A DNA stretch of 25,113 nucleotides from a bacterium (GTDB lineage: Bacteria > B130-G9). Within the stretch, counting starts at the first letter, position 1. Each line of letters starts with the position of its first letter. The notes beneath the pieces are model-generated. The model was given only the letters and a program-made list of their open reading frames with translations, was not told where the DNA came from and did not search any database. Of the stretch, positions 1,394 through 23,400 are shown piece after piece. The position numbers were made by a program, and so were the translations under genes. The stretch is from assembly GCA_021160245.1 (NCBI GenBank), contig JAGHCW010000172.1, positions 1 through 25,113 of the forward strand, in the 5' to 3' direction.

Positions 1394-1491
1394 CGACACA
1401 TTCACAGGATGCGATGCCCGGGGCCCTATGTGCCCATTAGGGTGTGACCTTAGACTTTGGGTAGAGTTCTTGGGCATCTATATCGCCACCT

Positions 1492-1518
1492 CATCGCCCG
1501 GCGCAAGCGCTGGCGATG
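1492..1518 (+). other. Hairpin in the wtpA-wtpB gap
   Basis: CATCGCC (1492-1498) pairs with GGCGATG (1512-1518), with an inner GCGC/GCGC stem and an AA loop. No T-run follows, so it is not a canonical terminator. It could stabilise or attenuate the wtpA transcript ahead of wtpBC. That role is inference only. Confidence 0.4.
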
Positions 1519-1537
1519 CAATCTGCTCATATTGTCA

Positions 1538-1666
1538 TAACCCCCGAATTCATTCGGGGGATGTGCGGTGTCCAATATCTCCCCTATATGCCCTTCAGAT
1601 GACGATGCCGGTGAGGGGCGAGGCGCGCCTCGCATCCTCAGGTCACCCGAATGAATTCGGGTGTTA
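1538..1666. repeat. Inverted pair of palindromic repeats (REP/BIME- or MITE-like)
   Basis: Two 24-base units at 1538-1561 and 1643-1666 are reverse complements of each other at 22 of 24 positions. Each unit is itself a palindrome with a 9-bp stem and 2-nt loop, sharing the core CCCGAATTCATTCGGG or its reverse complement. The two differences between units lie opposite each other in the stem (C:G in one, A:T in the other), so they are compensatory and keep the hairpin. Between them lie about 80 bases including another GC palindrome (1618-1633). This resembles a BIME made of two inverted REPs, or a very small MITE. No transposase is present. Whether other copies exist in the genome cannot be seen here. 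Confidence 0.7.
1612..1640. other. GC-rich palindrome/hairpin inside the repeat pair
   Basis: GCGAGGCGCGCCTCGC at 1618-1633 is a perfect 16-bp palindrome. TGAGG (1612-1616) and CCTCA (1636-1640) extend it as an outer stem with a small internal bulge. No T-tract follows. It sits just upstream of the wtpB start and could act as an mRNA hairpin or as the centre of the repeat element. Confidence 0.5.
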
Positions 1667-1668
1667 AT

Positions 1669-2493
1669 ATGATGAGAGCCATCCATATCACCACCGCTCG
1701 CGCCGGGCCGGCGTTCAGCTGGCTGCACCTTGCGTTCACGGCGCTCGGAGGCCTGGTCCTTCTCTTCATTGTTGCTCCCCTGCTTGGGATATATCTCAAC
1801 TCGGCGCCTGCTGACGTCTTGAGTGCGGCCAAAGAGTCTGAGGTCCAGCAGAGTATATGGCTGACGCTCTGGGTCTCGATGGCCGCAACGCTGGCCTTCG
1901 CAATTGCCTGCATACCCTTCGCCTACATTCTGGCCCGCAAGGATTTTCCGCTAAAAGGGCTCGTATCCGGCATCATCGACCTACCCGTCATCGTCCCTCA
2001 TTCTGTTGCGGGCATAGCGATCCTCAGCATTTTTGCCCGAGACACCCTGCTCGGCGATGCGGCAGAATGGGCTGGATTTGAAATAGTAGGCACGCCGGTC
2101 GGGATCGCGGCCGCAATGGCGTTCGTAAGCGTCCCATTTCTAATCAACGCGGCGCGCGATGGATTCTCCGCGGTCCCGATCAGGCTAGAAAAGGTGGCGG
2201 CAAGCCTTGGCGCCTCACCCTTGCGAGTTTTTCTCACCATCTCTTTGCCACTTGCATGGAAATCGGTTCTCTCTGGCCTAATCCTGATGTGGGGACGGGG
2301 GATGAGCGAGTTTGGCGCCGTTATCATCGTCGCCTATCATCCGATGATAACGCCGATACTCATTTACGAGCGTTTTGGCGCGTATGGGTTGAAATACTCT
2401 CGCCCTGTCGCGGCGCTTTTTATGGCGGTCTGCCTCGTCATCTTCATTCTCTTACGATTACTTGCGAGAGGGAGGAAGAATGCTGAGGATTGA
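1669..2493 (+). CDS. wtpB: Tungstate/molybdate ABC transporter permease
   Basis: This inner-membrane permease of the binding-protein-dependent family (BPD_transp_1) has about six hydrophobic segments. Its cytoplasmic EAA loop reads roughly EKVAASLGASPLRVFLTISL and is followed by the conserved GRGMSEFGAV stretch seen in ModB/WtpB proteins. It forms the channel that WtpC drives. An in-frame ATG at 1651 would add six residues but lies inside the right-hand palindromic repeat. I therefore prefer the ATG at 1669 (or 1672), although neither has a strong ribosome site. It overlaps wtpC by 14 bases. The 275-bp gap after wtpA is unusual for this operon and holds the repeat element. Confidence 0.88.
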   Translation: MMRAIHITTARAGPAFSWLHLAFTALGGLVLLFIVAPLLGIYLNSAPADVLSAAKESEVQQSIWLTLWVSMAATLAFAIACIPFAYILARKDFPLKGLVSGIIDLPVIVPHSVAGIAILSIFARDTLLGDAAEWAGFEIVGTPVGIAAAMAFVSVPFLINAARDGFSAVPIRLEKVAASLGASPLRVFLTISLPLAWKSVLSGLILMWGRGMSEFGAVIIVAYHPMITPILIYERFGAYGLKYSRPVAALFMAVCLVIFILLRLLARGRKNAED

Positions 2494-3541
2494 GCGTCTC
2501 TCAAAACGCCTTGGCTCATTCTCAATGCAGGACGTCTCGTTTGAGATTGAAAGGGGCGAGTACTTCGTGCTTTTGGGCGCATCTGGCGTCGGCAAGACCG
2601 TCCTCTTGGAGGTGATTGCTGGGATAATGATGCCAGATGCAGGGTGGATGTTCTTGGATGATCGGGATATCACGTCCGAGAGACCGCAGACCAGGGGAAT
2701 CGGGATTGTGTATCAGGATCAAGCTCTGTTTCCACATCTGTCGGTCTATCAGAACATTGCTTATGGTCTGCACTGCTTGCGACTGAAGCGATCACACGTC
2801 CGTGAACGAACGAGGGCGATGGCTGAGCGAGTGGGCGCTCAAGAACTTCTCAATAGGCGCCCAGCCACGCTCTCCGGTGGCGAGGCGCAGCGTGTGGCTT
2901 TGGCCAGGACGCTCGCTACAGGACCCAAATGCCTGCTGCTAGATGAGCCGATCTCTGCGCTCGACATTCAGTCAAAGGAGTCGCTTCGATCACTCTTGCG
3001 AGAGATAAACCGCCAGGGCCAGACGATACTTCATGTTACACACGATTATGAGGAGGCGCTTTCCCTGGCCTCGCGTATAGCGATCATGGAGGACGGCAGA
3101 ATAGCCCAAGTCGGAACGCCTGAGCAGATCTTCCACGCCCCAAAGTCGCAGTTCGTTGCGAGGTTTGTTGGGATCAAGAACTTTTTTGCAGGAACGCTTG
3201 AGAAGTCGGATGAGAATGGTCAACTCTGCGTCTTTGCAGCGGAGCGCGGGATGAGATTCCACGTGCTGACTGACGCCAAACCGGGCCCCGGGTTCCTCGT
3301 CTTTGGCAGCGAAGATGTGGCAATTGGAAACTCTCGGCCTGAGACGAGCGCGAAGAATGTCTTCCCCGGGACTGTCCTCGACATCGCTCCGGCGAAACTC
3401 GGAGTGGAGGTGTCTTTTGACATAGGTGTAAGGGTCTCCGCGCTCTTGACGCAGAGCTCCGTGAGCTCGCTGGAACTCACGATCGGCAAGTCGGTCTTCG
3501 CGCAGTTCAAGGCGAGCGCTGCGAGGTTTTTCCCGGAATGA
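2480..3541 (+). CDS. wtpC: Tungstate/molybdate ABC transporter ATPase
   Basis: This 353-aa ABC ATPase energises WtpB. It has Walker A GASGVGKT at 33-40, Q-loop Q79, signature LSGGEAQ at 131-137, Walker B CLLLDE at 151-156, and switch H188 in HVTHD. After about residue 230 there is a C-terminal TOBE-like region, as in ModC/WtpC. The ATG at 2480 is chosen because GGAGG lies four bases upstream. A TTG at 2462 in the same frame would add six residues that encode the Shine-Dalgarno itself. It overlaps the end of wtpB, so the pair is translationally coupled. All nucleotide-binding residues are present, and the protein should be active. Confidence 0.9.
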   Translation: MLRIERLSKRLGSFSMQDVSFEIERGEYFVLLGASGVGKTVLLEVIAGIMMPDAGWMFLDDRDITSERPQTRGIGIVYQDQALFPHLSVYQNIAYGLHCLRLKRSHVRERTRAMAERVGAQELLNRRPATLSGGEAQRVALARTLATGPKCLLLDEPISALDIQSKESLRSLLREINRQGQTILHVTHDYEEALSLASRIAIMEDGRIAQVGTPEQIFHAPKSQFVARFVGIKNFFAGTLEKSDENGQLCVFAAERGMRFHVLTDAKPGPGFLVFGSEDVAIGNSRPETSAKNVFPGTVLDIAPAKLGVEVSFDIGVRVSALLTQSSVSSLELTIGKSVFAQFKASAARFFPE

Positions 3542-3574
3542 CGACAGCGATACGGAGGCGATGCATGTCTGGGG

Positions 3575-4723
3575 GTGAGGATCTCTAAAGTGCTCAGAGT
3601 GCCCCGTATGTTGATGATAGGCTCGGCAGGCAGGAATGTCGGCAAGACGGAGCTCGCGTGTGCCATAATTCGCAGCTTCAGCCGGGACCATGAGGTCATC
3701 GGCATAAAGGCCACGACGATAGAAGAGCTGAATGGCGAGTGTCCCAGAGGCGGCAAGGGCTGCGGCGTCTGTTCCTCGTTAAGCGAGGATTTCTGCATAA
3801 CCGAGGAGACGGATGGTCCCGCCGGGAAGGACACGTCGAGGATGCTCGAGGCCGGCGCCTCGTCCGTTCTCTGGTTGCGATGCCTCAAGTCACATCTTGC
3901 GGAGGGAGCGGCCGCGCTCCTTAAAAGAATCGGTCCCGATGCCTTATGCGTTTGTGAGTCCAACAGCTTGCGGCGCGTGATTGAGCCCGGTATCTTCGTC
4001 ATTGTGAAGGGAAGTGGCTCGGATAAGTTCAAGGCCTCCGCAGAAGCAGTGAGAGGGCTCGCGGGCCGGATAGTCGAATCTGACGGCAAGAGCTACGATC
4101 TGGACATTGATCGATTTGAGCTCGTCAATAACGCCTGGACAATTGTAGAAAAGGCCACTGCAATCGTTATGGCCGGAGGCGCGAGCAGCAGGATGGGCGT
4201 CGATAAAAGCATGCTCGATGTCGATGGAAGACCATTGGTCCAGCACGTCTTTAACCAGCTGGCGCCTCACTTCGACGAGGTGATAATCAGCGCAAACGAG
4301 CCCTCGCAGTTTGAGTTCTTAGAGGTGCCAATCGTGCCGGACATCCAACCGGGACAAGGGCCGTTGATGGGCATATTCTCCGCCCTTCTCGCCTCGTCCA
4401 ACGACATCAATGTGGTGGTTGCCTGCGACATTCCGAGGATAAGCGTCAGTTTGATTCGACGGATGATTGGGAAGTCGAATGGATATGACGCGGTGATTCC
4501 CGTAAGCGGCAAAGGCAAGTTCGAGCCGCTGTTCGCCGTCTATAACAAGAGCATCCTTCGGGCCATGCGAGATGTTTTGAGGCGAGGCGCCAGGAAGATA
4601 TCAGATGTGTTCAATGTAGCTAAGGTCAAGTATCTTGATATAGAAGATACCACCTGTTTTGAGAACCTAAATACACTTGATGACTATGAGGATTTCATTG
4701 AACGAGAGAATGATAAGCCGTAA
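3575..4723 (+). CDS. mobA: Fusion: Cys-rich MobB-like P-loop domain + MobA guanylyltransferase
   Basis: This 382-aa protein has two parts. Residues 1-185 form a P-loop NTPase-like domain with GSAGRNVGKT (16-25), a cysteine cluster (C56, C63, C66, C74, including GKGCGVC), and a CESNS stretch at 127-131. It resembles MobB-type partners but is not a standard MobB. Residues about 194-380 are a MobA/MocA-type nucleotidyltransferase with AGGASSRMGVDK (200-211), GQGPLMGI, and a metal-binding ACDIP. MobA attaches GMP to molybdopterin to make the guanine dinucleotide cofactor; CMP (MocA) cannot be excluded. The GTG at 3575 gives the longest form; GTG 3590, with GAGG upstream, is a good alternative. 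It overlaps moeA by 14 bases. Confidence 0.85.
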   Translation: MRISKVLRVPRMLMIGSAGRNVGKTELACAIIRSFSRDHEVIGIKATTIEELNGECPRGGKGCGVCSSLSEDFCITEETDGPAGKDTSRMLEAGASSVLWLRCLKSHLAEGAAALLKRIGPDALCVCESNSLRRVIEPGIFVIVKGSGSDKFKASAEAVRGLAGRIVESDGKSYDLDIDRFELVNNAWTIVEKATAIVMAGGASSRMGVDKSMLDVDGRPLVQHVFNQLAPHFDEVIISANEPSQFEFLEVPIVPDIQPGQGPLMGIFSALLASSNDINVVVACDIPRISVSLIRRMIGKSNGYDAVIPVSGKGKFEPLFAVYNKSILRAMRDVLRRGARKISDVFNVAKVKYLDIEDTTCFENLNTLDDYEDFIERENDKP

Positions 4724-5885
4724 GCAGGCCGAGAGAATAGTGCTCGATTCGGCCAGGCAGATTGATGTCGAGCGAGCCGGGATAGACGAGGCGCTCGGAA
4801 GGGCGCTGGCGCAGGACGTTGCGTCAGACATTGATATGCCGCCGTTTGACAAGTCGGCAATGGACGGATATGCGTGTCGGCGTGCCGATCTAAAGGCCCA
4901 GCTCGATGTCATCGAGACTATCCCAGCGGGCAAAGAGCCCACAAGCGCCATCGGCCCCGGCAAGTGCGCAAAAATCATGACCGGCGCGATGGTCCCCGAG
5001 GGCGCAGACTGCGTGATAATGAAGGAATACGTTGAGGTCATAGATGAGCGAACTGTCCGCTTCGTGGGCAAGGACACGGCGACGAACATCTGCTTTCTGG
5101 CAGAGGACACCAGCGTCGGCGATGTTGTTCTGCGAAAGGGTGAGTTGATTAAACCGCAGCACATCGCGATTCTCGCGTCGCTCGGCTGCACATCGCCGCT
5201 TGTTTACAGAAGACCCAACGTGGGTATCGTCGCCACCGGGGACGAGCTGGTTGAGCCTACCGAGAAGCCCGGCGCCTCGCAGATACGAAACAGCAACAGC
5301 TATCAGCTCGTGGCGCAGGTTCGGGCCGCCGGTGCAATCCCTCATTACTATGGGATAGCCGGGGATAATGAGGAGGCGATCGATTCGCTATTTAAGGCCG
5401 CGCTTGCAGTGAACGACGTAGTGCTCATCTCCGGCGGCGTGTCGGTCGGCGACTACGACTTGGTTCCAGGCGTCATGCGTCGCAATGGCGTCGAGCTCCT
5501 TTTTGAGAGCATCGCTATGAAGCCGGGCAAACCGACTCACTTTGGCGCCTCAGCTAGCACGTTCTGCTTTGGTTTGCCAGGCAATCCCGTCTCGACATTC
5601 GTGGTCTTCGAGCTTCTGGTCAGGCCTTTCCTGCTCAAGATGATGGGCCACGAGTTCATTGCCCCGAACGTGCTAATGCCGCTCAATGAGGCCATAGAGA
5701 AGCGGCGCACGAAGAGGGAGGCTTGGTTCCCAGTTCTTTTAACAAGCGAGGGGACGGTTAAGCCGGTCGAGTATCACGGCTCCGCTCACGCGAGGGCGCT
5801 CCCTCAAGCGGATGGTTTAATCTGCTTGCCAGCCGGCGTCAATAGGTTCGAAGCGGGGACAATAGTCCATGTTCGACAGATTTGA
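4710..5885 (+). CDS. moeA: Molybdopterin molybdenumtransferase MoeA
   Basis: MoeA inserts molybdate (or tungstate) into adenylylated molybdopterin. The 391-aa form matches family length. Motifs in order are PPFDKSAMDGYA in domain II, PAGKEP, TGAMVPEGAD, VATGDELVEP, SGGVSVGDYDLV in the MoCF fold, then KPGKPT and GLPGNPVS, and a C-terminal beta domain. The ATG at 4710 gives the usual MoeA start (MISRKQAERIVL) with GAGAGA upstream. Upstream in-frame starts exist from 4677 but add residues not expected in the family. It overlaps mobA upstream and moaA downstream (17 bases), supporting a single operon. Confidence 0.93.
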   Translation: MISRKQAERIVLDSARQIDVERAGIDEALGRALAQDVASDIDMPPFDKSAMDGYACRRADLKAQLDVIETIPAGKEPTSAIGPGKCAKIMTGAMVPEGADCVIMKEYVEVIDERTVRFVGKDTATNICFLAEDTSVGDVVLRKGELIKPQHIAILASLGCTSPLVYRRPNVGIVATGDELVEPTEKPGASQIRNSNSYQLVAQVRAAGAIPHYYGIAGDNEEAIDSLFKAALAVNDVVLISGGVSVGDYDLVPGVMRRNGVELLFESIAMKPGKPTHFGASASTFCFGLPGNPVSTFVVFELLVRPFLLKMMGHEFIAPNVLMPLNEAIEKRRTKREAWFPVLLTSEGTVKPVEYHGSAHARALPQADGLICLPAGVNRFEAGTIVHVRQI

Positions 5886-6669
5886 CCGCCGCATAAATTA
5901 CCTCCGCATCTCAGTTACGGACCGGTGCAACCTGCGCTGCGTCTATTGCATGCCCCCGGAGGGCGTGCCGCTTTGGGGTCATGATGACATTCTCTCATTC
6001 GAGGAGATGCTCAAAGTCACCAAGACCGCGGTTGACATGGGCATCGACAAGGTCCGCGTGACGGGTGGTGAGCCGCTTGTTCGACGCGGCATAGTCCAAT
6101 TCGTAAATATGCTATCGAATATCGATGGTATAAGAGACTTAGCGATGACAACAAATGGCACATTGCTCGCCCCACTTGCGAGGCAGCTTCATGAGGCGGG
6201 GCTTCATCGCCTGAACATCAGCCTCGACACGCTTGATCCCGAGAAGTATCGGGAGATAACCCGCGTGGGTGACATCAACCAAGTGCTAGACGGCATTGAG
6301 GCGGCACAGGAGGCTGGATTCGCGGGCACAAAACTCAATTGTGTGGTTCATAAGACATCTTTAGAACCCGATGCGATGGCAGTTCGGCAGTTTGCCATAG
6401 AACGCGACCTTGAGGCGCGTTTTATTCGGCAGATGGACATTCAGCGAGGTGAATTTTGGGTCGTAGATGGCGGCACTGGTGGCGATTGCGCTATGTGTAA
6501 TCGGCTTAGGCTGACCAGCTGTGGCATGGTTAAGCCTTGTCTTTTTTCCGACATCTCATTTTCGGTTCGAGAGCTCGGCGCGAAAGAGGCCTTGACGCAA
6601 GCGGTTCATGCTAAGCCTGCGTCGGGCCACAGTAGCCTTCAAAACAAGTTCTACGCGATAGGAGGGTGA
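5869..6669 (+). CDS. moaA: GTP 3',8-cyclase MoaA, compact form
   Basis: This radical SAM enzyme performs the first step of molybdopterin synthesis, converting GTP to 3',8-cyclo-GTP. The N-terminal cluster is C20-x3-C24-x2-C27, followed by TGGEPLVRRG (65-74). The C-terminal cluster is C207-x2-C210-x13-C224 with the GTP-binding arginines in CNRLRL, and the protein ends in the conserved GG needed for activity. At 266 aa it is about 60 residues shorter than typical MoaA. The loss lies between FIRQMD (about 182-187) and GGDCAMC, where normal proteins carry a longer linker. All catalytic elements remain, so this looks like a compact natural variant and not a broken gene. The start overlaps moeA and the stop is 3 bases before moaC. 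Confidence 0.92.
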   Translation: MFDRFDRRINYLRISVTDRCNLRCVYCMPPEGVPLWGHDDILSFEEMLKVTKTAVDMGIDKVRVTGGEPLVRRGIVQFVNMLSNIDGIRDLAMTTNGTLLAPLARQLHEAGLHRLNISLDTLDPEKYREITRVGDINQVLDGIEAAQEAGFAGTKLNCVVHKTSLEPDAMAVRQFAIERDLEARFIRQMDIQRGEFWVVDGGTGGDCAMCNRLRLTSCGMVKPCLFSDISFSVRELGAKEALTQAVHAKPASGHSSLQNKFYAIGG

Positions 6670-6672
6670 TTT

Positions 6673-7128
6673 ATGGACAAACTCTCGCACGTTGATGATT
6701 CGGGACGCGCCAAAATGGTTGACGTCTCGCTCAAGAAACCCGTGTATCGCATGGCGCGGGCGGCAGGGCGAATATCGCTAAGTGAATCCACGGTCAAGCT
6801 GATCGAGGAGAATAGTATTAAGAAGGGGGACGTGCTGACGGTCTCGGAAATCGCCGGTATCCAGGCTGCAAAGCGGACATTCGACCTCATCCCTCTTTGT
6901 CATCCGCTGCCGATAAGCAACGTGTCGGTGAAGGCTATTCTGGAGCGGGATGGCGTCTCGGTCGAAAGCGAGGTCTCCTGCGTCGCAAGGACTGGCATTG
7001 AGATGGAGGCTCTGACGGCGGTGGCGGTCGCGCTTCTGACGGTTTACGATATGTGCAAGGCCGTTGACAAGATGATGAAGATCGGTGAGATAGTGCTAAT
7101 AGAGAAGATAAAAGGGCGCCCGGAATAG
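6673..7128 (+). CDS. moaC: Cyclic pyranopterin monophosphate synthase MoaC
   Basis: This 151-aa protein converts 3',8-cyclo-GTP to cyclic pyranopterin monophosphate, acting directly after MoaA. It shows LSHVDDSGRAKMVDVS at the N-terminus, AAKRTFDLIPLCHPLP in the middle, and ARTGIEMEALTAV with YDMCKAVDK at the C-terminus, which carry the family's active-site His, Asp and Lys residues. GGAGGG at 6661-6666 is a strong ribosome site. The start lies three bases after the moaA stop. Confidence 0.95.
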   Translation: MDKLSHVDDSGRAKMVDVSLKKPVYRMARAAGRISLSESTVKLIEENSIKKGDVLTVSEIAGIQAAKRTFDLIPLCHPLPISNVSVKAILERDGVSVESEVSCVARTGIEMEALTAVAVALLTVYDMCKAVDKMMKIGEIVLIEKIKGRPE

Positions 7129-7187
7129 AGTATTTGGTCCTGTAATCCCCCAGCCACGCGATTTTATAGGGAGAGGAACAGAAGATT

Positions 7188-8192
7188 ATGGCGATAAAGA
7201 GCGATTCTGCGGATGTAGAGGCAGGTCTTGTGTCCGCCCAATATCCTGGGAAGAAGATGAGCGTCGTCTCCGTCAACATCTCCACGGACAAGGGAACGAC
7301 CAAGAGGCCCCTCCCCGAAGTGCATATTGACGAGAAGGGGATAAAAGAAGACGCCCACGCTGGCGTCTGGCACAGGCAATTGAGTTTGCTGAGCATGGAG
7401 AGCGTAGAGCGCTTCTCTGCTCAAGTGAGTCACGAGTTCCTGCCCGGGGATTTTGCGGAAAACATAACGACTCGAGGCATAGACCTCTCTTCTGTCGCTA
7501 TACTTGACAGAATCGCTGTCGGCGAGGCGGAACTGGAGGTGACCCAGATAGGAAAAGCCTGCCATCCTGATGGTTGCGGCGTCTTCAAACAGGTCGGCAA
7601 ATGCGTCATGCCAAAGGAGGGCATATTCTGTCGGGTCCTCTCGGGCGGCAGGATTGCTCCGGGCGATGAGATTATCTTATCGCCTCGTCCGCTTCTGTTC
7701 TCGGTGATCACACTGAGTGATAGGGCTAGCCGGGGGGAATACAAGGATCGAAGTGGTCCCCGAATAAGAGCCATGCTCGAGGAGTTTTTCGTCTCAACTC
7801 GCTGGCGCCTGGAGATAAGGAGCGTCGTAATCGCCGATGAACCTGTAAGGCTGAGACAGGAGGTGGAATCCGCGGTACAGGGCGGAGCGTCGGTTATCAT
7901 AACGACGGGCGGAACGGGTGTTGGGAGCCGAGACATCACGCCGGATGTCATAGCCGGACTCTGCGACAAGACCATCCCCGGCATAATGGAGTTCATCCGG
8001 GTCAAATGCGGCGAGACCAAACCGAATGCTCTACTCAGCCGTTCAGTGGCAGGCACTATAGGGAAAAGCCAGATATACGCCTTGCCGGGTAGCGTCCGTG
8101 CCGTCGAGGAGTATATGAGTGAGATACTCAAGACGATGGAGCACCTCATTCTGACGCTGCACGACATCGATCCCCATCAGGAGCAGCCGTAG
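7188..8192 (+). CDS. MOSC domain - MogA/MoaB molybdopterin adenylyltransferase fusion
   Basis: This 334-aa protein joins two domains. Residues about 22-165 are a MOSC domain, which binds or transfers sulfur or cofactor in Moco sulfurases and YiiM-like proteins. It has DAHAGVWHRQLSLLS, the family's GDFAENITT, and a cysteine in GKACHPDGCGVF. Residues about 168-325 are a MogA/MoaB (MoCF_biosynth) domain with TLSDRASRGEYKDRSGP, TTGGTGVGSRDITPD and ALPGSVRAVEEY, which adenylylates molybdopterin before MoeA acts. MOSC-MogA fusions occur in other anaerobes. The ATG at 7188 has a purine-rich GGGAGAGGAACAG upstream. It is the last gene of the cofactor block, followed by a convergent - strand unit. Confidence 0.9.
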   Translation: MAIKSDSADVEAGLVSAQYPGKKMSVVSVNISTDKGTTKRPLPEVHIDEKGIKEDAHAGVWHRQLSLLSMESVERFSAQVSHEFLPGDFAENITTRGIDLSSVAILDRIAVGEAELEVTQIGKACHPDGCGVFKQVGKCVMPKEGIFCRVLSGGRIAPGDEIILSPRPLLFSVITLSDRASRGEYKDRSGPRIRAMLEEFFVSTRWRLEIRSVVIADEPVRLRQEVESAVQGGASVIITTGGTGVGSRDITPDVIAGLCDKTIPGIMEFIRVKCGETKPNALLSRSVAGTIGKSQIYALPGSVRAVEEYMSEILKTMEHLILTLHDIDPHQEQP

Positions 8193-12343: not shown

Positions 12344-13366
12344 ATGAGTGTATTGGGGAAACTGAAGTCAGTCCTGAAACGGGCCTTGTCCGGCGAAGCG
12401 CCCAAGCCAGCGCCAAAGGGTGGCCTCGATGACCTTCAGGGCAATGGCGGTCCTGTGCGACTAAGGAATGACGGCCGGCCAATCATAATAAACGACCTGA
12501 TCAGATCGCACGGATACAAGAGCTACCTCGAGATCGGGATACGCGACGCCAGGACGATCAAGGTTGTTGATTGCCCCGTGAGGCACGGTGTTGATCCGGC
12601 TCATCCGTGTAGTCACCAGATGACCTCTGACAAGTTCTTCGCCGAATTGCCAGATGATTTTAAGTACGACCTTATCTTCATCGACGGCCTGCACCTCGAG
12701 GCGCAGGTGGACAAAGACATTGTGAACTCACTCAAACACCTTTCTGAGGGCGGCGCCATCGTCTTGCACGATTGTAGTCCCGAGAACGAGGATAGGCAGC
12801 GGCATTATGATGATCTCTCAAAGATCAAGGGCGTCTGGAACGGAACGGTCTGGCGGTCTTATGCGAAGCTGCGGATGGAGCGGAAAGACCTGAGTATGTT
12901 CGTGATTGACATGGACCACGGGATTGGCGTCATAAGGCCCGGCCAGCAAAGTCTTTTCAAGATGCCGAAAGGCCGGAAGCTCGATTACAGCCTCCTGAGT
13001 GATTTCAGGCGCGAGCTTCTCAACGCCTTCAAACCCGTCTGGGTGTGCAATGTGGACGAGGCGCTTAGGATCGTTGAGGCAGAGGAGAAATTCTTCCTAT
13101 CGGATTGCCAGTGTCAGCACGGCATCGGCGGCGACGCTCGTGTATTTGAGTATCCCTGCATCACGTTCAAGCAGGGCTCACCATCCGCCGGCGATAACGA
13201 GCGCGAGGTGGACAAGTCCGAGGTCAAAAGGATGCTTGGCGAGGCGGCGAAGAAGGGCCTCGTGCCGATTGCTTTCAGAGACGACAGAGAGCTGGCGATG
13301 CCAGGGGGCTTGTGTCTCTGTTCGGATGAGCTTCGTAAATGTCTTCTCGGATCGAGCCCAGTCTAG
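12344..13366 (+). CDS. SAM-dependent methyltransferase fused to Cys-rich (Fe-S-like) C-terminal domain
   Basis: This 340-aa protein has residues 45-170 resembling a class I Methyltransf_24 domain: YLEIGIRDA (61-69) for SAM binding, DLIFIDGLH (109-117), and GGAIVLHDC (136-144). Residues about 235-338 look like a different module. It begins VDEALRIVEAEEKFFLSDCQC, continues to PCITF, then a KSEVKRMLGEAAKKGLV helix, and ends GGLCLCSDELRKC. Its cysteines (255, 257, 272, 324, 326, 333) follow the layout of a Cys-rich domain seen in some iron-sulfur proteins (CxCR...PxxxC...CxC). Metal binding is inferred. It heads a glycan operon, so it may methylate a sugar or glycan end. AGGTGA precedes the ATG. 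Confidence 0.75.
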   Translation: MSVLGKLKSVLKRALSGEAPKPAPKGGLDDLQGNGGPVRLRNDGRPIIINDLIRSHGYKSYLEIGIRDARTIKVVDCPVRHGVDPAHPCSHQMTSDKFFAELPDDFKYDLIFIDGLHLEAQVDKDIVNSLKHLSEGGAIVLHDCSPENEDRQRHYDDLSKIKGVWNGTVWRSYAKLRMERKDLSMFVIDMDHGIGVIRPGQQSLFKMPKGRKLDYSLLSDFRRELLNAFKPVWVCNVDEALRIVEAEEKFFLSDCQCQHGIGGDARVFEYPCITFKQGSPSAGDNEREVDKSEVKRMLGEAAKKGLVPIAFRDDRELAMPGGLCLCSDELRKCLLGSSPV

Positions 13367-13387: not shown

Positions 13388-14650
13388 TTGAAATCCGGAG
13401 GACGCGCAAAGAGCGCTGCGGTAAATTGTATTCTGCTATTGGTCTCGCTCGGAATTGCGCTCTTAGTAGCTGAGCTTGGACTGCGAAGCCTTGAGCATCG
13501 GAAGACGATAAAGAGCCCGAAGCTGTTGTGCCAGTACGACCCCTACCTCGGCTGGGCTAAGATTCCCAATGCAGAGGGCTGGTTCGAGATGCCGGAGTAT
13601 AAGATTTACGAGAAGATCAATTCCAAGGGGCTTCGTGGCCCAGGATGCCCTTACGAGAAGCCTCCGGGAGAATACAGAATTCTCTTCTTGGGCGATTCGT
13701 TCTGCGAGGGCTATTCGGTAGCTCTTGACCAACTCTTCACTCAACGACTGCAAGTAATGCTGAACGAGAGAACAGATGGCCCGGAGTACCGCACGATAAA
13801 TGGTGGGACGGGTGGTTACAGCACGGATCAGGAACTGCTGTTCTTCCGCTCCGAGGGGATCAAATACAAGCCGGACCTCGTAGTCCTCATGTTCTATGAA
13901 AACGACATCTGGTTCAACAACCAGAGGAGATATTGGCGGGGTTACAAGCCGCTTTTCAAGCTTGAAGGACAAGAGCTTGTCCTGACAAATGTGCCGGTTC
14001 CTGCGCCGGCCGCATCGACTAAGAGCTCAGATAATGAAAGACAGCTGACGCTGAAGCAGTGGTTGAACAAGAACTCGCGGGTCTATTCTTTTATCAGGAA
14101 GAACCTGAAGAGGCTAGTCTGGCTTAACGATGCGTTCTATCGGCTGGGGCTTGCGCAGAAGCCTGCTGAGATAGAGCCGCAGAAGGGGACCAGGCTTCCT
14201 CCGCAGTTCAAGGTGTGGCATAGGCGCCCCCCTCCTGAGATCGTGGGCGCGTGGCGGATTACTGAGGCGCTGATCGCGCAGCTTAAGCTGGAAGTCGAGG
14301 CGGCTGGGGGCCAGCTTGTTCTGTTCTATATCCCAAACAAAGGCAACATTTACGGCGATGCCCGTGCAGACACAATGGAGAAGTATGCCCTGTCAGAGGT
14401 AGATTATGATCTGCAGCAACCGGCAAAGGACCTCCAGAAAGTGTGTGAGAGGCAGTCCATCCCATTCATAGATCCGACCGAGCGCTTTCGCGAGGAGGCC
14501 GGGCGGCTCGACAAGGTCGGCGAGCGTCTTTATTTCAAGATAGATAGCCATTGGACAGCGGAAGGCCACGACCTGGCCGCCGAGATTCTTCTCTCACACA
14601 TCATGGCGATTTCCAAGCCCGAAACTCATGCCACGAGAGACAATGACTAA
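13388..14650 (+). CDS. SGNH/GDSL hydrolase-like protein (possible O-acyltransferase)
   Basis: This 420-aa protein has one N-terminal membrane anchor (residues 12-32) and an SGNH-type domain outside the membrane. The block I motif is LFLGDSFCEGY, with the nucleophile at S104. Block II glycine is in GGTGGYSTDQE, block III asparagine in FYENDIW, and the D386-x-H388 pair in DSHWTAEGH. The DSHW form resembles AlgJ/AlgX-type acetyltransferases, so glycan O-acetylation or deacetylation is likely. The start is TTG at 13388 with AGGGAG upstream, 21 bases after the methyltransferase, and it overlaps the next glycosyltransferase. Confidence 0.8.
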   Translation: MKSGGRAKSAAVNCILLLVSLGIALLVAELGLRSLEHRKTIKSPKLLCQYDPYLGWAKIPNAEGWFEMPEYKIYEKINSKGLRGPGCPYEKPPGEYRILFLGDSFCEGYSVALDQLFTQRLQVMLNERTDGPEYRTINGGTGGYSTDQELLFFRSEGIKYKPDLVVLMFYENDIWFNNQRRYWRGYKPLFKLEGQELVLTNVPVPAPAASTKSSDNERQLTLKQWLNKNSRVYSFIRKNLKRLVWLNDAFYRLGLAQKPAEIEPQKGTRLPPQFKVWHRRPPPEIVGAWRITEALIAQLKLEVEAAGGQLVLFYIPNKGNIYGDARADTMEKYALSEVDYDLQQPAKDLQKVCERQSIPFIDPTERFREEAGRLDKVGERLYFKIDSHWTAEGHDLAAEILLSHIMAISKPETHATRDND

Positions 14651-15905
14651 CGCGATAGTGGCCAGCATTATCATTCCCGTCTATAACGACGAGAAGTTCA
14701 TCGCGAAGGCGATAGACGGCGCGCTTGCGCAGACCCATCCGGGCGTTGAGGTGATAGTCGTGGATGACGGCTCAACCGACGGCACGCTCGACATTATAGA
14801 GGGATACAAGGACCGTATCGTCTATGTCCGGCAGAGGAACCACGGCGTCGTTGCCAGGGCCAGAAATATCGGCGCCTCAATAAGCCGGGGCCGTTATATT
14901 TGCTTTCTGGACTCCGATGACACGGTCATGCCGGACAAGATCAGGCTTCAGGCCGACTTCATGGACGCGCACCCGGACATTGCGGTCTGCTATATCGGGT
15001 GGCTGGATATTGACGTGCGCGATGGGAGTGTCATCTCCGACTTCTCCGTTCCGCCGCCTGAGGGCAATCAGCAAAGAGACGAGTTTCCGGCGCATTTTCC
15101 GGTTTTTGCGGGACTGATAAGGAAAGAGATATTCGAGCAAGTCGGCAGACTGGATGAGTCTCTTAAATGCGTCGAGGATTCCGAGTTTTACTGGCGGCTC
15201 TGGGCGGACGGGCACAAGTTCAAGCGCATTGTGAATGGCGCCATGGCCTGCCGAGGCGTTCGGTCTGGGAGCAAGTCCAAAAACGTGCCGAGGCACTCAA
15301 AGTATGCGATCATGGCCTTTAAGAAGCACTTTGCGAGGATGGGGCGTCGGGTCAGCCGCGAGCTGCGAATACTGAAGCTGGGTGGGGTCTGGATGAAACA
15401 GGCTGGCTATTACATCAGCATCGAGGAGACCGACAAGGCGATTGATGCGGTCCAAAACGCGCTCAGATACAATCGGCATCTTCTGCGGGAGCCGACCAGC
15501 TGGCTGTTGCTCATACGACAGCTGGATACAAGATTTCCCCCGGGCAGCAAGAAGGCTCGGAGTATGAGCAATTTTCAAAAGGCGTGGCCCGAGATGGTCT
15601 CTGTGGCCCGCGAGGCTATGTCGCGCCGGTTGGGGCGGAACGTTGACGAGAGGCAGATACGCCTCGAGAAGTCGGCGCTTGCCTATGCCATATCACGGGA
15701 GGCGTCGTCGAAGGGGAGATTCCTTGAGACCGCCTCCTGGTTCATCCGCGCCTTTGTGATTGGGCGGGGTCGTCTCCCCAGGAGCATCAGTTGGAGGCTC
15801 GTGCTGCACGGCCTCGGCACAGTCTTGTGCAGAGTATCGAGTCTGCTATCCCGCAAGGTGCGCCGGGTAATGCGCAGGCGAAAAGGGCCGGGTCAGGTCG
15901 CATGA
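14643..15905 (+). CDS. Family 2 glycosyltransferase with C-terminal extension (copy 1)
   Basis: This is a GT2 (GT-A fold) enzyme of about 420 aa. Its motifs are SIIIPVYND at the N-terminus, VVDDGSTDGT for nucleotide-sugar binding, LDSDD as the DxD-type metal site, and a CVEDSEFYWRLW acceptor/base motif. Residues after about 250 form a helical extension shared with the next two genes (GVWMKQAGYYI, then ALRYNRHLL, then ALAYAISR). The ATG at 14643 is favoured over 14628 because it has GAGAGA upstream and begins close to the GT-A fold. It overlaps the upstream gene by eight bases and the downstream one by an ATGA junction. Confidence 0.87.
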   Translation: MTNAIVASIIIPVYNDEKFIAKAIDGALAQTHPGVEVIVVDDGSTDGTLDIIEGYKDRIVYVRQRNHGVVARARNIGASISRGRYICFLDSDDTVMPDKIRLQADFMDAHPDIAVCYIGWLDIDVRDGSVISDFSVPPPEGNQQRDEFPAHFPVFAGLIRKEIFEQVGRLDESLKCVEDSEFYWRLWADGHKFKRIVNGAMACRGVRSGSKSKNVPRHSKYAIMAFKKHFARMGRRVSRELRILKLGGVWMKQAGYYISIEETDKAIDAVQNALRYNRHLLREPTSWLLLIRQLDTRFPPGSKKARSMSNFQKAWPEMVSVAREAMSRRLGRNVDERQIRLEKSALAYAISREASSKGRFLETASWFIRAFVIGRGRLPRSISWRLVLHGLGTVLCRVSSLLSRKVRRVMRRRKGPGQVA

Positions 15906-17185
15906 CGACTGCTCGTGGACCCAACCAAACGGGGCAACCAGCGCCCAAGGTCAGCGTGATAATCCCTGTCTATAACGATGAGGCGTGCATCTCTCGGGCA
16001 GTCGATAGCGCCCTGGCTCAAACGCTCGCCTCGGTTGAGGTGGTGGTTGTGGATGACGGCTCAACAGATGGGACGCCTGAGATTCTAACTCGCTATGGCG
16101 ACCGGATTGTCCGGGTCAGGCAGAGAAATCACGGCATCGTGGCCAAAGCGCGAAACGTCGGTGTTGCGGCCAGCCGGGGTCAGTACCTTTGCCTTCTCGA
16201 TTCGGATGACACCATCATGCCGAAGAAGGCCGAGCTGCAATCCGCATTTCTAGATGAACATACCGACGTCGGCCTTTGCTACAGTGGGTGGTTGGACATC
16301 GACCTAAATGACGGAAGCGTCATCAGCGACTTCTCTCACGCCAGGCCTGAGAGCGACCCCGCGAAAGAGGTCTTTCCGCCTCACTTCCCAGTCTTCGCGG
16401 CGCTTGTGCGGCGAGATTGGTTTGATCTAGTTGGAGGCCTAAACGAGCGATTCAAGTGCGTGGAAGATTCCGATCTGTGGCGGCGTCTTTGGGTCTCCGG
16501 CTGCAAATTCGCTCGCGTTAAGGGCGCCATGGCCTGCCGTGGAGTTCGCCCGGATAGCAAATCAAAGAATGTCCCCAGGCACTCGAAATATGCCATTGCG
16601 GCCTTCCGATTGCATTTTGCGAGAGTCGGAGCTCGGGCGAGTAGGGCACTCCGGGTGCGGAAACTGGCCGGGGTATGGATGAAGCAGGCCGGCCACTACA
16701 TCAATGCGGGCGATACCGAGCTCGCGAAGAAAGCGATTCGTGAGGCGCTAAGATACGACCGGCGACTCTTGATTCAACCCGTCAACTGGGCGCAGCTGCT
16801 CCGTCAGATGGACCGCCGGTTTACCCCCGGAGAGGGGCCCGGCTTATGCGATTACGAGGCGACCCGGCGGCAAATTGTGCCGATCATCCGTGAGGCAATG
16901 GACGTTGAGGCGCATCCCAATAGAGAGCCGTTGCTTAGGGAGGCGAGCGCCGGCCTTTCGTATGCGCTCTCGCAGCACGCTCTTTTTTCGGGTAATATCT
17001 TGCAATCGGTGAAGTGGGCTTGGCGCGCACTAGTAGCGGGACGTGGCCGGCCGCCCAGTGGCATCGACTGGCCGCTCTTGAGGCGCGCCTTGGGCAGAGC
17101 CATCTTGAAGATAGCGTCTCGCGCCTCAAGAATGCTCCGGAGAAGTCCTCACTCAACTGGCAAATCAGAAGCCGCAAGACGATGA
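15902..17185 (+). CDS. Family 2 glycosyltransferase with C-terminal extension (copy 2)
   Basis: This 427-aa paralog of the preceding gene is alike over its full length, with long identical blocks such as RHSKYAI, GAMACRGVR and GVWMKQAG. It has SVIIPVYND, VVDDGSTDGT, LDSDD and CVEDSDLWRRLW, so the catalytic core is intact. The ATG at 15902 overlaps the previous stop (ATGA), with AGG just upstream. The open frame reaches back to 15791, but that part lies inside copy 1 and is not expected to be translated. It probably adds a similar but distinct sugar to the same polymer. Confidence 0.88.
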   Translation: MTTARGPNQTGQPAPKVSVIIPVYNDEACISRAVDSALAQTLASVEVVVVDDGSTDGTPEILTRYGDRIVRVRQRNHGIVAKARNVGVAASRGQYLCLLDSDDTIMPKKAELQSAFLDEHTDVGLCYSGWLDIDLNDGSVISDFSHARPESDPAKEVFPPHFPVFAALVRRDWFDLVGGLNERFKCVEDSDLWRRLWVSGCKFARVKGAMACRGVRPDSKSKNVPRHSKYAIAAFRLHFARVGARASRALRVRKLAGVWMKQAGHYINAGDTELAKKAIREALRYDRRLLIQPVNWAQLLRQMDRRFTPGEGPGLCDYEATRRQIVPIIREAMDVEAHPNREPLLREASAGLSYALSQHALFSGNILQSVKWAWRALVAGRGRPPSGIDWPLLRRALGRAILKIASRASRMLRRSPHSTGKSEAARR

Positions 17186-17751
17186 GTAAGAACGAACAGC
17201 GCGAGAAGGAAGGGATGAACTGGCTTAGGATTGGCTGTGGGAGCCATATAATGGGAAATAGTGTTGAGGCGGCGACTGCGTTTGGGAAGGCTATTGAGCA
17301 AGACGCCGCAATCTTCACAAGACACTCAACATGGACACAAATTCTGATCTATTCCGACCCCTCATTTCCTCAGATAAGCGAGCGATGGTTCCCCGATTTC
17401 TGCCAAATCTGGGATAGCGTAGCCGATCTCGCACGTGGCGATTCGCAGAGACCGAGCCGGAAGCACAACATTTCCGGCCTTCGAGCGGAACGAGCGGCTC
17501 TTTCGTTTGCGCTTCACCGTCTAGCGCTTCGGCGAAGGAGGCGCTGCCTCGCCGCATTTTGGCTTTTGAGGACCTTACTTTCATCTCCCTTGCGATATGC
17601 CCGCCGATTCGGACTACGCGACATAATCAGGACCTACCGGGGTCTTCATCCACCATTCAATCTGGTCCGCTTCGTCAAGACGGCGCTTGGACCAACATTG
17701 ACGAGGCTTATCGTCACCATTGTGAGAAAGGTCCGGCCGAAGAGAAGATGA
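17182..17751 (+). CDS. Stand-alone homolog of the GT2 C-terminal helical domain
   Basis: This 189-aa protein has no GT-A fold. It aligns by eye with the last ~170 residues of the two preceding glycosyltransferases. Shared features are an opening W-x-R/K-x-(G/A) helix, EAATAFGKAIEQD against ELAKKAIREALRYD, a W-x-x-(I/L)L step, a paired AALSFALHRLA helix, and a basic Arg-rich tail. The ATG at 17182 overlaps copy 2's stop (ATGA), so expression is coupled. It could be a partner or regulator of the GT2 enzymes or a remnant of a third copy. The longer open frame from 17014 lies inside copy 2 and is rejected. Confidence 0.65.
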   Translation: MSKNEQREKEGMNWLRIGCGSHIMGNSVEAATAFGKAIEQDAAIFTRHSTWTQILIYSDPSFPQISERWFPDFCQIWDSVADLARGDSQRPSRKHNISGLRAERAALSFALHRLALRRRRRCLAAFWLLRTLLSSPLRYARRFGLRDIIRTYRGLHPPFNLVRFVKTALGPTLTRLIVTIVRKVRPKRR

Positions 17752-17806
17752 CCCGAGATAGCTTTGAGCCGATCAAACAGCACGATTCAGAACGTCCGGG
17801 GATGAC

Positions 17807-20056
17807 ATGAAAGTCCTAGTGGCAAGTTCGTTACATCCCACGGATGACCCCCGCGTCTTTCACAAGATCGCCGCCTCGCTCGCAAAGAGGCATGATGTCC
17901 ACCTGATAGCCGTCGGAGATGATGCGGAAGATAGAAACGGCGTGAGTATTCATCCATTCAAGAAAAGAGGCGGCAAGCTGCTTGGCACTCTCTGCGCGTG
18001 GTCTGCGATTATGAGTCAGTTTCGCGCCGTGAGGCCTGATGTATTTCACTTCCACGACCCGGATCTCGTGCCCTTAGGCTTGCTTTTGAGCCTCTTCGGC
18101 AAGGTCAAAGTAGTCTATGACATTCACGAGGATGTATCCAAAACGCTTTTGAAGAAAAAGTGGTTGCCGAGCGCATTGAAGCGGCCCCTAGCTCGTCTAT
18201 TCGACGCATTCGAGAAGGCGGCAGCCACCCGTTTTGACGCGCTCTGCATCGCTGAGCCTTACGTCAAGAAGAGGTTCCCATCAAGCAAGGCGATTCTTGT
18301 CAGGAACTTCCCGCAGCTAGTTCACGACAGACCCAGAGAGCCATTTTCGCCCGACCGTCCACTGCGACTCATCTATGCCGGCAGTCTGACGAGGATAAGA
18401 GGGATACAGACGATCATCGATGCGCTTGAGTTCATCAAGACGCCGGTGGAGCTTGAGATTCTCGGAAGGTTTCACAGCAAGCAGTTTGAGGAGGAGACAT
18501 TGCAGCGGATGCAGGGAAAAAACGCGAGCTATCTCGGCTGCGTGCCGCCCGATAATGTTTTTGACTACCTCTGCGACGCGGATATTGGGCTCTGTTGCTT
18601 GCATCCGGCGCCAAGCCATACCGAGAGTTTTGCGACGAAGCTCTTTGAGTATATGTCTGCCAGGCTTCCCATCATAGCCTCCGATTTCCCGCTCTGGCGA
18701 CAATTGGTTCAGGACAGCGGCTGCGGTGTCTGTGTGGACCCGGAGAATCCCGAGGCCATCGCCCGGGCGGTTGATGAATTGGCCGGGAATCCGGCGCAGA
18801 TGAAGACTATGGCCAATACCGGCCGGGCGTTATTTGAGAGCGAATTCAACTGGACAAGGGAAGAGGAGTCGCTGCTTAATATGTATGATCGGCTGCAGGA
18901 AGGCTTAGAAGAGCAGCAACCGAGCGCGGATAGGACTATTCCTGATCCATCTGCCGAGGAACACAACGTACCGTACGAACCCGATGCCTATCTCAATGAA
19001 GACGAAAGGCCACTTTTTTCGATTGTGATCCCCATGTTTAACGAGGCGCGCAGCATTGAGACGTGCCTGCGGGCGCTCGATGCGAACGATTTCCTGAAGG
19101 AGCAGTTTGAGATAATTGTCGTTGACGGAATGAGTAATGATGCCTCGCGAGAGATTGCAGAGAGCATATTGGAGGAGATGGGCAACGGTCAGGTTGTGTC
19201 GAACCCAAAACGGATTACCCCAAGCGCGCTTAACATCGGAGCCCGGGCAGCAAGGGGCGATAACATCATCATTCTGGGGGCGCACAGCGCCGTCGCGCCC
19301 GACTTTTTGAGCGAGAATCTGGAGGCGCTTAAGCGGAATCATGACGCCGATTGCGTTGGTGGGATGCTGATTCCTGAGCGGTCAGAGTCCCTGTTTGTGA
19401 ACGTGATAAACGTCGCCCACAACTGCCCGTTCGGCTCCGGCGGCGCGGGCTTTCGATATAGCAGTGAGCCGGGCTTTCGCAACACCGTCCCATTCGGGGC
19501 GTACAGACGAGATGTATTTGAGAAGATCGGCTACTTCGATGAGCATCTATACAAGGGACAAGACGCGGAATTCAACTTCAGGATGATCGATTATGGCCTC
19601 AAGATATTCTACTCGCCCGAGATCAAATCGCAGTACTTCGCCCGATCATCATTCCGCCGGCTCTTTCGGCAGTTCCTAGATATGGGCTGGTCGAAGGTAT
19701 TTATTTTCCACAAACATCCGCTCCTTCTGAAGAGCTATTATTTCGCGCCGCTTGCATTCGCTCTTGTGACGATGGGAATAGCGTTACGACTCCCCTGGGC
19801 GTCGGGATATGAATTACTCTCTCTTCTTGTCGTCGCGGCCTGCTATATCCTCCTATCTATCTACTTTGGGCTCTCATTTGCAGCTCGAAAGGGCATGATT
19901 CTGAAGAGCAAAATAGCTGCGGCTCTCATCTTCCCGGTCGCCTTCTTCCTGATGCACTTCTCCTATGGTCTGGGCACGCTGAAAGGCCTGCTCGAGCTCG
20001 CATTCTCATCTCTGCGGACGAGGCGCAAAAAAGTCGAATATAGAAGGATGTTATGA
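17807..20056 (+). CDS. Bifunctional GT4-GT2 glycosyltransferase with C-terminal membrane segments
   Basis: This 749-aa protein joins two glycosyltransferases. Residues 1-370 form a GT-B, GT4-type domain, opening with VLVASSLHPTDDPRVFHKI and carrying DVFHFHDPDL, RLIYAGSL, and a sugar-nucleotide site of the type TKLFEYMSARLPII. After an acidic linker of about 30 residues, residues ~402-660 form a GT2 domain (FSIVIPMFNE, IIVVDGMSND, GQDAEFNFR) like ExoA. Hydrophobic segments near 640-720 place the C-terminus at the membrane. It probably adds two successive sugars to a lipid-linked glycan. The ATG at 17807 has GGGGATGAC upstream. Confidence 0.88.
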   Translation: MKVLVASSLHPTDDPRVFHKIAASLAKRHDVHLIAVGDDAEDRNGVSIHPFKKRGGKLLGTLCAWSAIMSQFRAVRPDVFHFHDPDLVPLGLLLSLFGKVKVVYDIHEDVSKTLLKKKWLPSALKRPLARLFDAFEKAAATRFDALCIAEPYVKKRFPSSKAILVRNFPQLVHDRPREPFSPDRPLRLIYAGSLTRIRGIQTIIDALEFIKTPVELEILGRFHSKQFEEETLQRMQGKNASYLGCVPPDNVFDYLCDADIGLCCLHPAPSHTESFATKLFEYMSARLPIIASDFPLWRQLVQDSGCGVCVDPENPEAIARAVDELAGNPAQMKTMANTGRALFESEFNWTREEESLLNMYDRLQEGLEEQQPSADRTIPDPSAEEHNVPYEPDAYLNEDERPLFSIVIPMFNEARSIETCLRALDANDFLKEQFEIIVVDGMSNDASREIAESILEEMGNGQVVSNPKRITPSALNIGARAARGDNIIILGAHSAVAPDFLSENLEALKRNHDADCVGGMLIPERSESLFVNVINVAHNCPFGSGGAGFRYSSEPGFRNTVPFGAYRRDVFEKIGYFDEHLYKGQDAEFNFRMIDYGLKIFYSPEIKSQYFARSSFRRLFRQFLDMGWSKVFIFHKHPLLLKSYYFAPLAFALVTMGIALRLPWASGYELLSLLVVAACYILLSIYFGLSFAARKGMILKSKIAAALIFPVAFFLMHFSYGLGTLKGLLELAFSSLRTRRKKVEYRRML

Positions 20057-21628: not shown

Positions 21629-22438
21629 TCAGGGCCGTAGCGTAGTCGAAAGCGACCAGTTTTCAATTCTAGCGCCATTCGGCGGTAGTGTCTGGCGGTC
21701 ATATCCGTACGCATAGACCGAGGCGTGGTCCTGATAAACATGAAGATTGACATAAAGGCCATTCCCGTTGGCCGGGCCCTCATGCCAGGTGATCTCGCCA
21801 TAGCCATCATCGTCCAACTCCCGGTGTTCCTGTCGAACAAAGTACTTGATATCTGAACCTGACGACGACTCACCGTTGATGTAGGTGGACCAAGTGTGGT
21901 TGATCTCGAGGTTGACCTTTATCAAATACCAGCGATGGTCGATGTACTCGAACGTCGCATAATTGGGACCATTGTCCCTCCAAGTTCGAAGCCGCACGCG
22001 CGTTATTCGAAGCTCGGCAAACGCCGGCTCGCAAGCCAAATCCAGATAGCCGCGGCGGGTCAGCGCCAACACCATCCAATACGTTCCTGGAACCGATGAA
22101 AAGGCCAGCATCTCGCCGCAGAATCTTGCCAGAAAATAGTCGTCAATGGCGTAACCTTGCGGCAGGAATAACTGGCCCCTAAATGGAGTCGCTCGCGTCT
22201 GAGGCGCCGGACAGCCGGGATAGAAGAACCTGATAGTGCCTGTATCGTCCAATACGGCCAGATAGACATCGGTCAAGAGATCAGATTGGTCCCATTCGAC
22301 CGAGCCGAAGACCTGAACCTCATCAAACAGGGAGATCTCATCGGAGCTGAGTGTGACGCTCAACTGCGACTCAGCCGTGGCGGTTCCAATAGACATGCTC
22401 AAGAGAAAAATGCTCATCGCGGAGAAGATTTGCCTCAC
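21629..22438 (-). CDS. Secreted protein of unknown family (paralog B)
   Basis: This 269-aa protein has a signal peptide ending near ATAES. The N-terminal ~145 residues closely match the neighbouring gene at 22549-23400, for example FGSVEW, DLLTDVYLA, GCPAPQ, QLFLPQG, EMLAFSSVPG and RGYLDLACEP. The C-terminal half differs. The layout suggests an all-beta extracellular domain, but I recognise no family. The GTG at 22438 has a GGGGG just upstream. With its paralog it forms a tandem pair on the - strand. Confidence 0.75.
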   Translation of the reverse strand: MRQIFSAMSIFLLSMSIGTATAESQLSVTLSSDEISLFDEVQVFGSVEWDQSDLLTDVYLAVLDDTGTIRFFYPGCPAPQTRATPFRGQLFLPQGYAIDDYFLARFCGEMLAFSSVPGTYWMVLALTRRGYLDLACEPAFAELRITRVRLRTWRDNGPNYATFEYIDHRWYLIKVNLEINHTWSTYINGESSSGSDIKYFVRQEHRELDDDGYGEITWHEGPANGNGLYVNLHVYQDHASVYAYGYDRQTLPPNGARIENWSLSTTLRP

Positions 22439-22548: not shown

Positions 22549-23400
22549 TTAGGGAGTGAGTTCGGTTTCTAGCGTCCCATGTGCACTGAAACGATAGTAG
22601 CTCCCGTGTTTCTTGTATTGATCCCAGTAGCCTGTTACAACTGCGGATGCGGGGGTGATGTCAATTGTTACATCCCTGGTCCAGTACTCATAGCTACCAT
22701 GCCAAGAACCGCCGCCATCATCCCAGCTCCATGCATCGGGCCACTCATGACTGCCGAAGCCATTTTCATCCAAAGTTACCCGGTCCTCATAGGTGAGTCG
22801 CAGTACTCCAGGCCCAGAGGAAGACCATCCCTGCGAGTTGTACTCTGTCCGCCAGTATAAGATCTCAACGTACAACTTGACGAGGTGCCATCGCCTATTC
22901 TTGTAATTGAATATCGCCAAGTTGCCCGCAGCATCACTAAATGTGCAGGGAGGTTCGGGCTCGTGAATCTCGAATGGCGCAAACACCGGCTCGCAAGCCA
23001 AATCCAGATAGCCGCGGTGGGTTAGCGCCAGCATAATCCAATAGGAGCCTGGAACCGATGAAAAGGCCAGCATCTCGCCACCGAATTCTGCAAGCAGGTA
23101 GCTGTCAATGCTGTGTCCCTGCGGGAGAAATAACTGGCTCCTGAAAGGAATCGCCCGTGGTTGAGGCGCCGGGCAACCTTCATAAAAAAACCTGATAGCG
23201 CCCGTATCGTCCATTGCGGCCAGATAGACATCGGTCAAGAGGTCCGGCTCGTTCCATTCAACAGAACCGAAAATCTGGAGATCATCGACCGTGGAAATAT
23301 CATCCCAGTTGAGCGAAACACTCAATTGCGGATCGGCCATGGCCAAGCCTGCAAACATGCTCAAGAGAAGAATACCCATGGCACAGAAGCTCTGTTTCAT
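22549..23400 (-). CDS. Secreted protein of unknown family (paralog A)
   Basis: This 283-aa protein has a signal peptide (MKQ, then a hydrophobic run, cut near AMADP). Its N-terminal ~145 residues are nearly the same as paralog B at protein and DNA level. The C-terminal half is rich in Trp, Tyr, Gly and Ser (WPDAWSWDDGGGSWHGSYEY), consistent with an extracellular beta domain or binding surface. The ATG at 23400 has GGAGGG seven bases upstream, a good ribosome site. A matching ACAAAAG block lies at similar distance upstream of both genes. No family is recognised. Confidence 0.78.
   Translation of the reverse strand: MKQSFCAMGILLLSMFAGLAMADPQLSVSLNWDDISTVDDLQIFGSVEWNEPDLLTDVYLAAMDDTGAIRFFYEGCPAPQPRAIPFRSQLFLPQGHSIDSYLLAEFGGEMLAFSSVPGSYWIMLALTHRGYLDLACEPVFAPFEIHEPEPPCTFSDAAGNLAIFNYKNRRWHLVKLYVEILYWRTEYNSQGWSSSGPGVLRLTYEDRVTLDENGFGSHEWPDAWSWDDGGGSWHGSYEYWTRDVTIDITPASAVVTGYWDQYKKHGSYYRFSAHGTLETELTP

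Follow-up and report, generated by a model that had tools for sequence, protein, structure and literature searches.

The 23S rRNA methyltransferase RumA/RlmD holds an Fe–S cluster through four cysteines, and this cluster has been proposed to be structural (PMC5614603). RlmCD is active although it has no such cluster (PMC5614603), so the cluster is not catalytic in the RumA family. The methyltransferase-fold protein METTL17 is reported to need a [4Fe–4S] cluster for stability (PMC11046306). METTL17 is a mitoribosome assembly factor, not a glycan-acting enzyme, and is compared here by that description only.

The window (the whole 25,113-nucleotide stretch of DNA analysed) encodes a protein that appears to have arisen by fusion of a Methyltransf_24-type methyltransferase with the N-terminal Cys-rich domain of a small 4Fe–4S protein (Table 1). 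Like RumA/RlmD, it is a class I SAM methyltransferase with a Cys-rich part, which binds the cluster in RumA and forms a candidate site here. In RumA/RlmD, however, the four cysteines come from a loop and from a central domain that precedes the catalytic one, and the substrate is RNA; RumA does not act on glycans, unlike the role proposed below for the fusion protein. No homology was seen between RumA/RlmD and the tail of the window protein. Two assignments were considered and rejected. The protein is not a RumA/TrmA-type Fe–S methyltransferase, since its tail cysteines come after the catalytic domain and PF13578 is the sole Pfam domain found in its 340 residues. It is not a radical SAM methyltransferase, since the translation contains no CxxxCxxC motif and has no match to PF04055.

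Table 1 Features of the fusion gene and its surroundings in the window, with relatives of the Cys-rich domain given by locus label
Feature	Coordinates	Strand	Basis or remark
Fusion gene, 340 aa	12344..13366	+	ATG start, TAG stop, single ORF
Class I SAM methyltransferase domain, residues ~46–231	12479..13036	+	PF13578 and alignment to relatives
Motif I region EIGIRDA, residues 65–71	12536..12556	+	Alignment with seven relatives
PF13578 (Methyltransf_24) match, residues 91–144	12614–12775	+	39.4 bits vs Pfam gathering cut-off of 26.3
Fused C-terminal Cys-rich domain, residues 232–340	13037..13363	+	Homolog of domain preceding 2[4Fe–4S] ferredoxin modules
C255-x-C257, invariant CxC pair	13106..13114	+	Family form CxCR; CQCQ here
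C272, family-invariant, fourth Cys	13157..13159	+	Family alignments
C324-x-C326, invariant CxC pair	13313..13321	+	Family alignments
C333	13340..13342	+	Two residues past Arg331; no homologous family cysteine in alignments
GDSL/AlgX-like (SGNH) protein gene	13388..14650	+	21 bp after fusion-gene stop
GT2, GT2, small ORF, GT4–GT2 fusion	14628..20056	+	Glycan operon context
Stand-alone relatives of the tail	L014/L018 6639–7181; L015/L019 2135–2692		
Cys-rich domain loci	L007 910–2196; L008 931–2208; L018 6639–7181; L019 2135–2692; L020–L049; L056–L075		

The nearest relative of the methyltransferase half among the 84,980 genomes searched comes from an Acidobacteria MAG (L002; 39–43% identity). 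L002 is collinear with residues 1–231 of the fusion protein and stops there, which identifies the tail as an added module. More remote relatives, on plasmids and among 396 genomes of the L002 phylum, align with the methyltransferase half alone and have no tail. The preliminary description had called this a methyltransferase with an atypical tail, and the end of L002 at residue 231 agrees with it: the tail is foreign to Methyltransf_24 enzymes.

With L002 the fusion protein shares the methyltransferase core and the VDPA, FIDGLHLEAQVDKDI, HDC.P and WNGTVW motifs (the corresponding motifs retained in the fusion protein being VDPA, FIDGLH, HDC and W.G.V). L002-type enzymes lack the C-terminal Cys-rich domain and, unlike the fusion protein, have the second glycine of motif I. 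This residue is glycine in all seven aligned relatives and is replaced by Ala69 in the fusion protein. Such a substitution need not abolish SAM binding; with Ala69 in this place, the methyltransferase activity is putative. Judged by its surroundings, the methyltransferase half probably methylates a product of its operon, either a glycan or a lipid-linked sugar.

A GAGGTGA sequence resembling a ribosome-binding site lies just 5' of the fusion-gene ATG, and the fusion gene and the GDSL/AlgX-like gene form one transcription unit judged by their spacing. The placement in a glycan operon made in the preliminary description holds, with the GDSL/AlgX-like gene, two GT2 genes and a GT4–GT2 fusion following on the same strand. 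The two GT2 genes are a tandem pair of paralogs whose proteins share 54% identity; with the ORF that follows, they occupy 14628–17751. This ORF, at 17014–17751, weakly matches the C-terminal part of these two proteins only (E = 8e-5) and, from this match, may be a GT-less remnant. On the 5' side the fusion gene is flanked by a divergent membrane-protein gene, beyond which lies an unrelated molybdenum-cofactor cluster.

The origin of the tail is visible in its database relatives. Among the 396 genomes of the L002 phylum, two proteins (L014 and L015) match residues 231–330 of the fusion protein only, with E-values of 3e-12 and 9e-11. Both stand alone, at 180 and 185 residues, and their N termini line up with the beginning of the tail; a BLASTP comparison of the tail with the stand-alone relatives gives 33% identity over 97 residues. 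The junction at about residue 231 is therefore sharp, and a whole domain has been attached at the end of the methyltransferase. The same domain runs from start to end in the stand-alone 4Fe–4S proteins of this phylum (~30–33% identity), which share with the tail the order CxC ... C ... CxC. They differ from it in having all the cysteines (CxC, C, C, CxCCxxCC) and two Fer4 motifs, and no methyltransferase.

To score this relationship we used a profile of the two closest stand-alone relatives, from which the window protein was left out. The tail scores 57.7 bits against this profile, and 31.0 bits when every cysteine is masked, whereas the best of 1000 shuffled tails with the cysteines kept in place reaches 11.6 bits. 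The homology is thus not an artefact of matched cysteines. A consensus bait used in the searches was written after the tail had been seen and supports none of the conclusions; all later tests are based on database sequences. These comparisons indicate true homology between the tail and a Cys-rich, Fe–S-associated domain, and they establish the Fe–S ancestry of the tail at the level of sequence. The idea of an Fe–S-like module, put forward from the sequence alone, is therefore right as to ancestry, the relatives continuing into two Fer4 motifs. In a profile search of the tail alone, which had been proposed as a check, the tail matches the Fe–S-associated domain through the profile of its relatives and matches no Pfam or NCBIfam model. 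Pfam-A and NCBIfam in fact hold no model for the domain, whether the whole protein, the tail or ten family members are scanned alone.

The domain itself is common. It occurs in about a fifth (82 of 396) of the sampled genomes of the Acidobacteria phylum, as counted with a search profile of five rows of which the window tail is one. Proteins of about 430 residues annotated as '4Fe–4S binding protein', for example from Cetobacterium (L007, WP_240221497.1) and Acetoanaerobium (L008), carry it after ~165 N-terminal residues and before a dicluster ferredoxin. Their Cys-rich domain is the same as that of the tail; the ~430-residue proteins differ from the fusion in the ~165 residues ahead of the domain, in the second motif, CNCCGCCC, and in the dicluster ferredoxin behind it. 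The domain is thus a widespread unit of ~110 residues of the form CxCR...C...C...CxCCxCCC preceding dicluster ferredoxins, for which no solved relative was found.

We found no ortholog of the fusion, which is known from one genome, in a bacterial phylum of which few genomes have been sampled. Neither the source genome nor three other genomes of its phylum contain a second copy of the tail domain, no tail relatives were found in viral contigs, and a Priestia plasmid gave a weak match (E = 0.4). The fusion gene was found in no other genome of the source phylum, and the draft assembly is fragmented into 244 contigs, of which the window is one, complete at 25 kb, as would be expected if the fusion were an assembly or binning chimera absent from the living genome. 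We regard this as highly improbable: the junction lies mid-contig and in one frame, GC and codon usage are uniform across it, the next gene follows 21 bp downstream, and the genome has no intact separate copy of either half elsewhere. The tail matches the neighbouring genes in GC, GC3 and in-frame codon score, and its codon log-likelihood is −1.05 in frame versus −1.37 or lower out of frame. As judged from sequence comparison, the fusion is real and unusual, and built of known parts.

The stand-alone relatives run on into two Fer4 motifs (PF00037 twice), whereas the fusion gene stops, its TAG lying seven residues beyond C333 and shortly before the next gene. No Fer4 motif follows the tail in any frame before the next gene, nor in the 21-bp gap. 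The fusion protein has no match to Fer4 (PF00037 and its clan) at E-values up to 10, and no CxxCxxCxxxC motif. A hidden frameshift into a ferredoxin is ruled out, as the other frames contain no Cys-rich reading.

Cysteines occur in the 340-residue translation at positions 77, 89, 144, 235, 255, 257, 272, 324, 326 and 333. The six listed in the preliminary description (255, 257, 272, 324, 326 and 333) are exactly placed, and Cys235 is a further one in the tail. At the neighbour-gene cysteine frequency of 1.6%, the chance of at least six in 104 residues is ~0.006, which is modest evidence alone; it is the profile homology test that places the observation far beyond chance.

We compared these positions with the family in two alignments, one of 33 family domains and a second of 27 more divergent members together with the window tail. 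Seven cysteines are invariant (CxC ... C ... C ... CxC ... C), and three further second-motif cysteines are present in 81–97% of members. All 27 other members of the second alignment have the complete invariant set, against five of the seven in the window tail. A divergent member on the Subdoligranulum variabile plasmid OY725877.1 (L009) has the second motif CNCNVNIC; it keeps the seven invariant cysteines and lacks the extra second-motif ones. In the window tail the arginine that follows the first CxC is replaced by glutamine, and the third invariant cysteine, ~8 residues before C272, is lost (GDARVF, with Ala or Phe at this position). After C324-x-C326 the next cysteine and the CC/CCC behind it are lost: Ser327, Glu329 and Leu330 stand in place of the near-invariant cysteines, and the last invariant cysteine is Arg331. 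Conservation in homologs, a test the six cysteines had been set, is thus found for C255, C257, C272, C324 and C326, which are all invariant, and not for C333, which has no counterpart.

The ferredoxin is gone and the ligand set is broken, and so the tail is probably not an electron-transfer module. We favour, with slightly better than even confidence, a fused former Fe–S module that is past electron transfer, now has a structural or partner-binding role and may retain one simplified metal site. After fusion the fold, both CxC pairs and C272 would have been kept and the full ligand set lost. As an appendage of the methyltransferase, the tail would then be structural or bind a partner, with at most one simplified metal site drawn from C255, C257, C272, C324 and C326. 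Five of the seven invariant cysteines are kept at ~30% identity, which argues for some ligand role, and 'appendage only' may therefore be too weak a description.

The loss of four normally conserved cysteines and of the ferredoxin could also mean that the tail is a dead remnant, the roleless and decaying product of a recent fusion or read-through; occurrence in a single genome and the motif I Gly-to-Ala change in the enzyme part point the same way. This reading is quite unlikely, because the tail has 109 codons without a stop and native codon usage throughout, and its homology remains clear with the cysteines masked, indicating that the fold is being kept.

The tail could instead hold a functional metal or Fe–S site with a reduced ligand set, the state of which switches the methyltransferase on or off. 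Three cysteines plus a non-Cys ligand (for example His259 or Asp264) might form such a site, or the two CxC pairs might surround one zinc. In its favour are the five family-invariant cysteines kept, as two CxC pairs and one more, the smaller C-terminal cysteine set that Subdoligranulum L009 also has, and the existence of Fe–S-holding class I methyltransferase folds, namely RumA (PMC5614603) and METTL17 (PMC11046306). It has to contend with the two missing invariant cysteines and the missing arginine after the first CxC, with the missing ferredoxin for electron exchange, and with RlmCD, which methylates without the RumA cluster (PMC5614603). We consider it possible, at well below even confidence. 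A more specific proposal is unlikely: the tail of a glycan-operon methyltransferase would have been re-tuned to C255, C257, C272, C324 and C326, with C333 or a non-Cys ligand as a possible addition, and the enzyme would couple surface-glycan methylation to metal or oxygen status. A redox or metal switch had been suggested from the sequence at the outset; the lack of two of the seven invariant cysteines, of the near-invariant cysteines and of the 2[4Fe–4S] ferredoxin speaks against it.

Structure prediction gave a compact model of the tail. AlphaFold run on the tail alone as a single sequence returned a mean pLDDT of 76 and a pTM of 0.72, with the predicted order beta-alpha-beta-beta / beta-alpha-beta-beta-alpha. 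In this model the two strands of a predicted hairpin carry C255 and C257 (first strand) and C272 (second strand); C324 and C326 fall on a strand further on, in the second half of the tail, and C333 in the last helix. From the register of the hairpin, C255, C257 and C272 would be expected to share one face. The predicted placing of these three N-side cysteines on one hairpin, with the other CxC on a further strand, would suit a reduced site that acts as a switch. For the full protein with one relative the mean pLDDT was 43, and the methyltransferase was too poor to use.

When PDB sequences were searched with the tail, with a consensus and with the family profile, the matches were at chance level only; one of these, 9QKX (E = 0.03), has its sole citation in a paper on designed TIM barrels. 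Foldseek with the tail model returned nothing below an E-value of 0.17. VIA-align matches to CheC (Z 5.6, rmsd 3.8 over 103 residues) and MraZ (Z 4–4.5) were set aside because they fall within the range that the tool calls common.

The fusion shows that a widespread unmodelled Cys-rich domain can quit its ferredoxin, join an unrelated enzyme and shed part of its ligands. The domain is common and has no solved structure, and the fusion, a mutant supplied by nature, can therefore be used to ask which cysteines of the domain are required for holding a cluster. A limited literature search found no published fusion of this kind, which is weak evidence. If the reduced site still binds metal, this glycan methyltransferase would be, to our knowledge and within that non-exhaustive search, the first to carry a module of this type.

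Elsewhere in the window, a compact cluster at 69–8192 encodes an HTH regulator, an SBP/permease/ATPase transporter with a TOBE domain, a MobA-domain protein with an extra N-terminal region, MoeA, MoaA, MoaC and a MOSC–MogA-type fusion. This is a cluster for molybdate/tungstate uptake and cofactor synthesis. Its MoaA (5869–6669) is short, at 266 residues; the Mob_synth_C match covers profile positions 59–106 only and scores 33.2 bits, below the Pfam cut-off of 37.4. At the other end of the window, two adjacent genes on the minus strand (21629–22438 and 22549–23400) encode proteins that are 57% identical and have signal-peptide-like starts.
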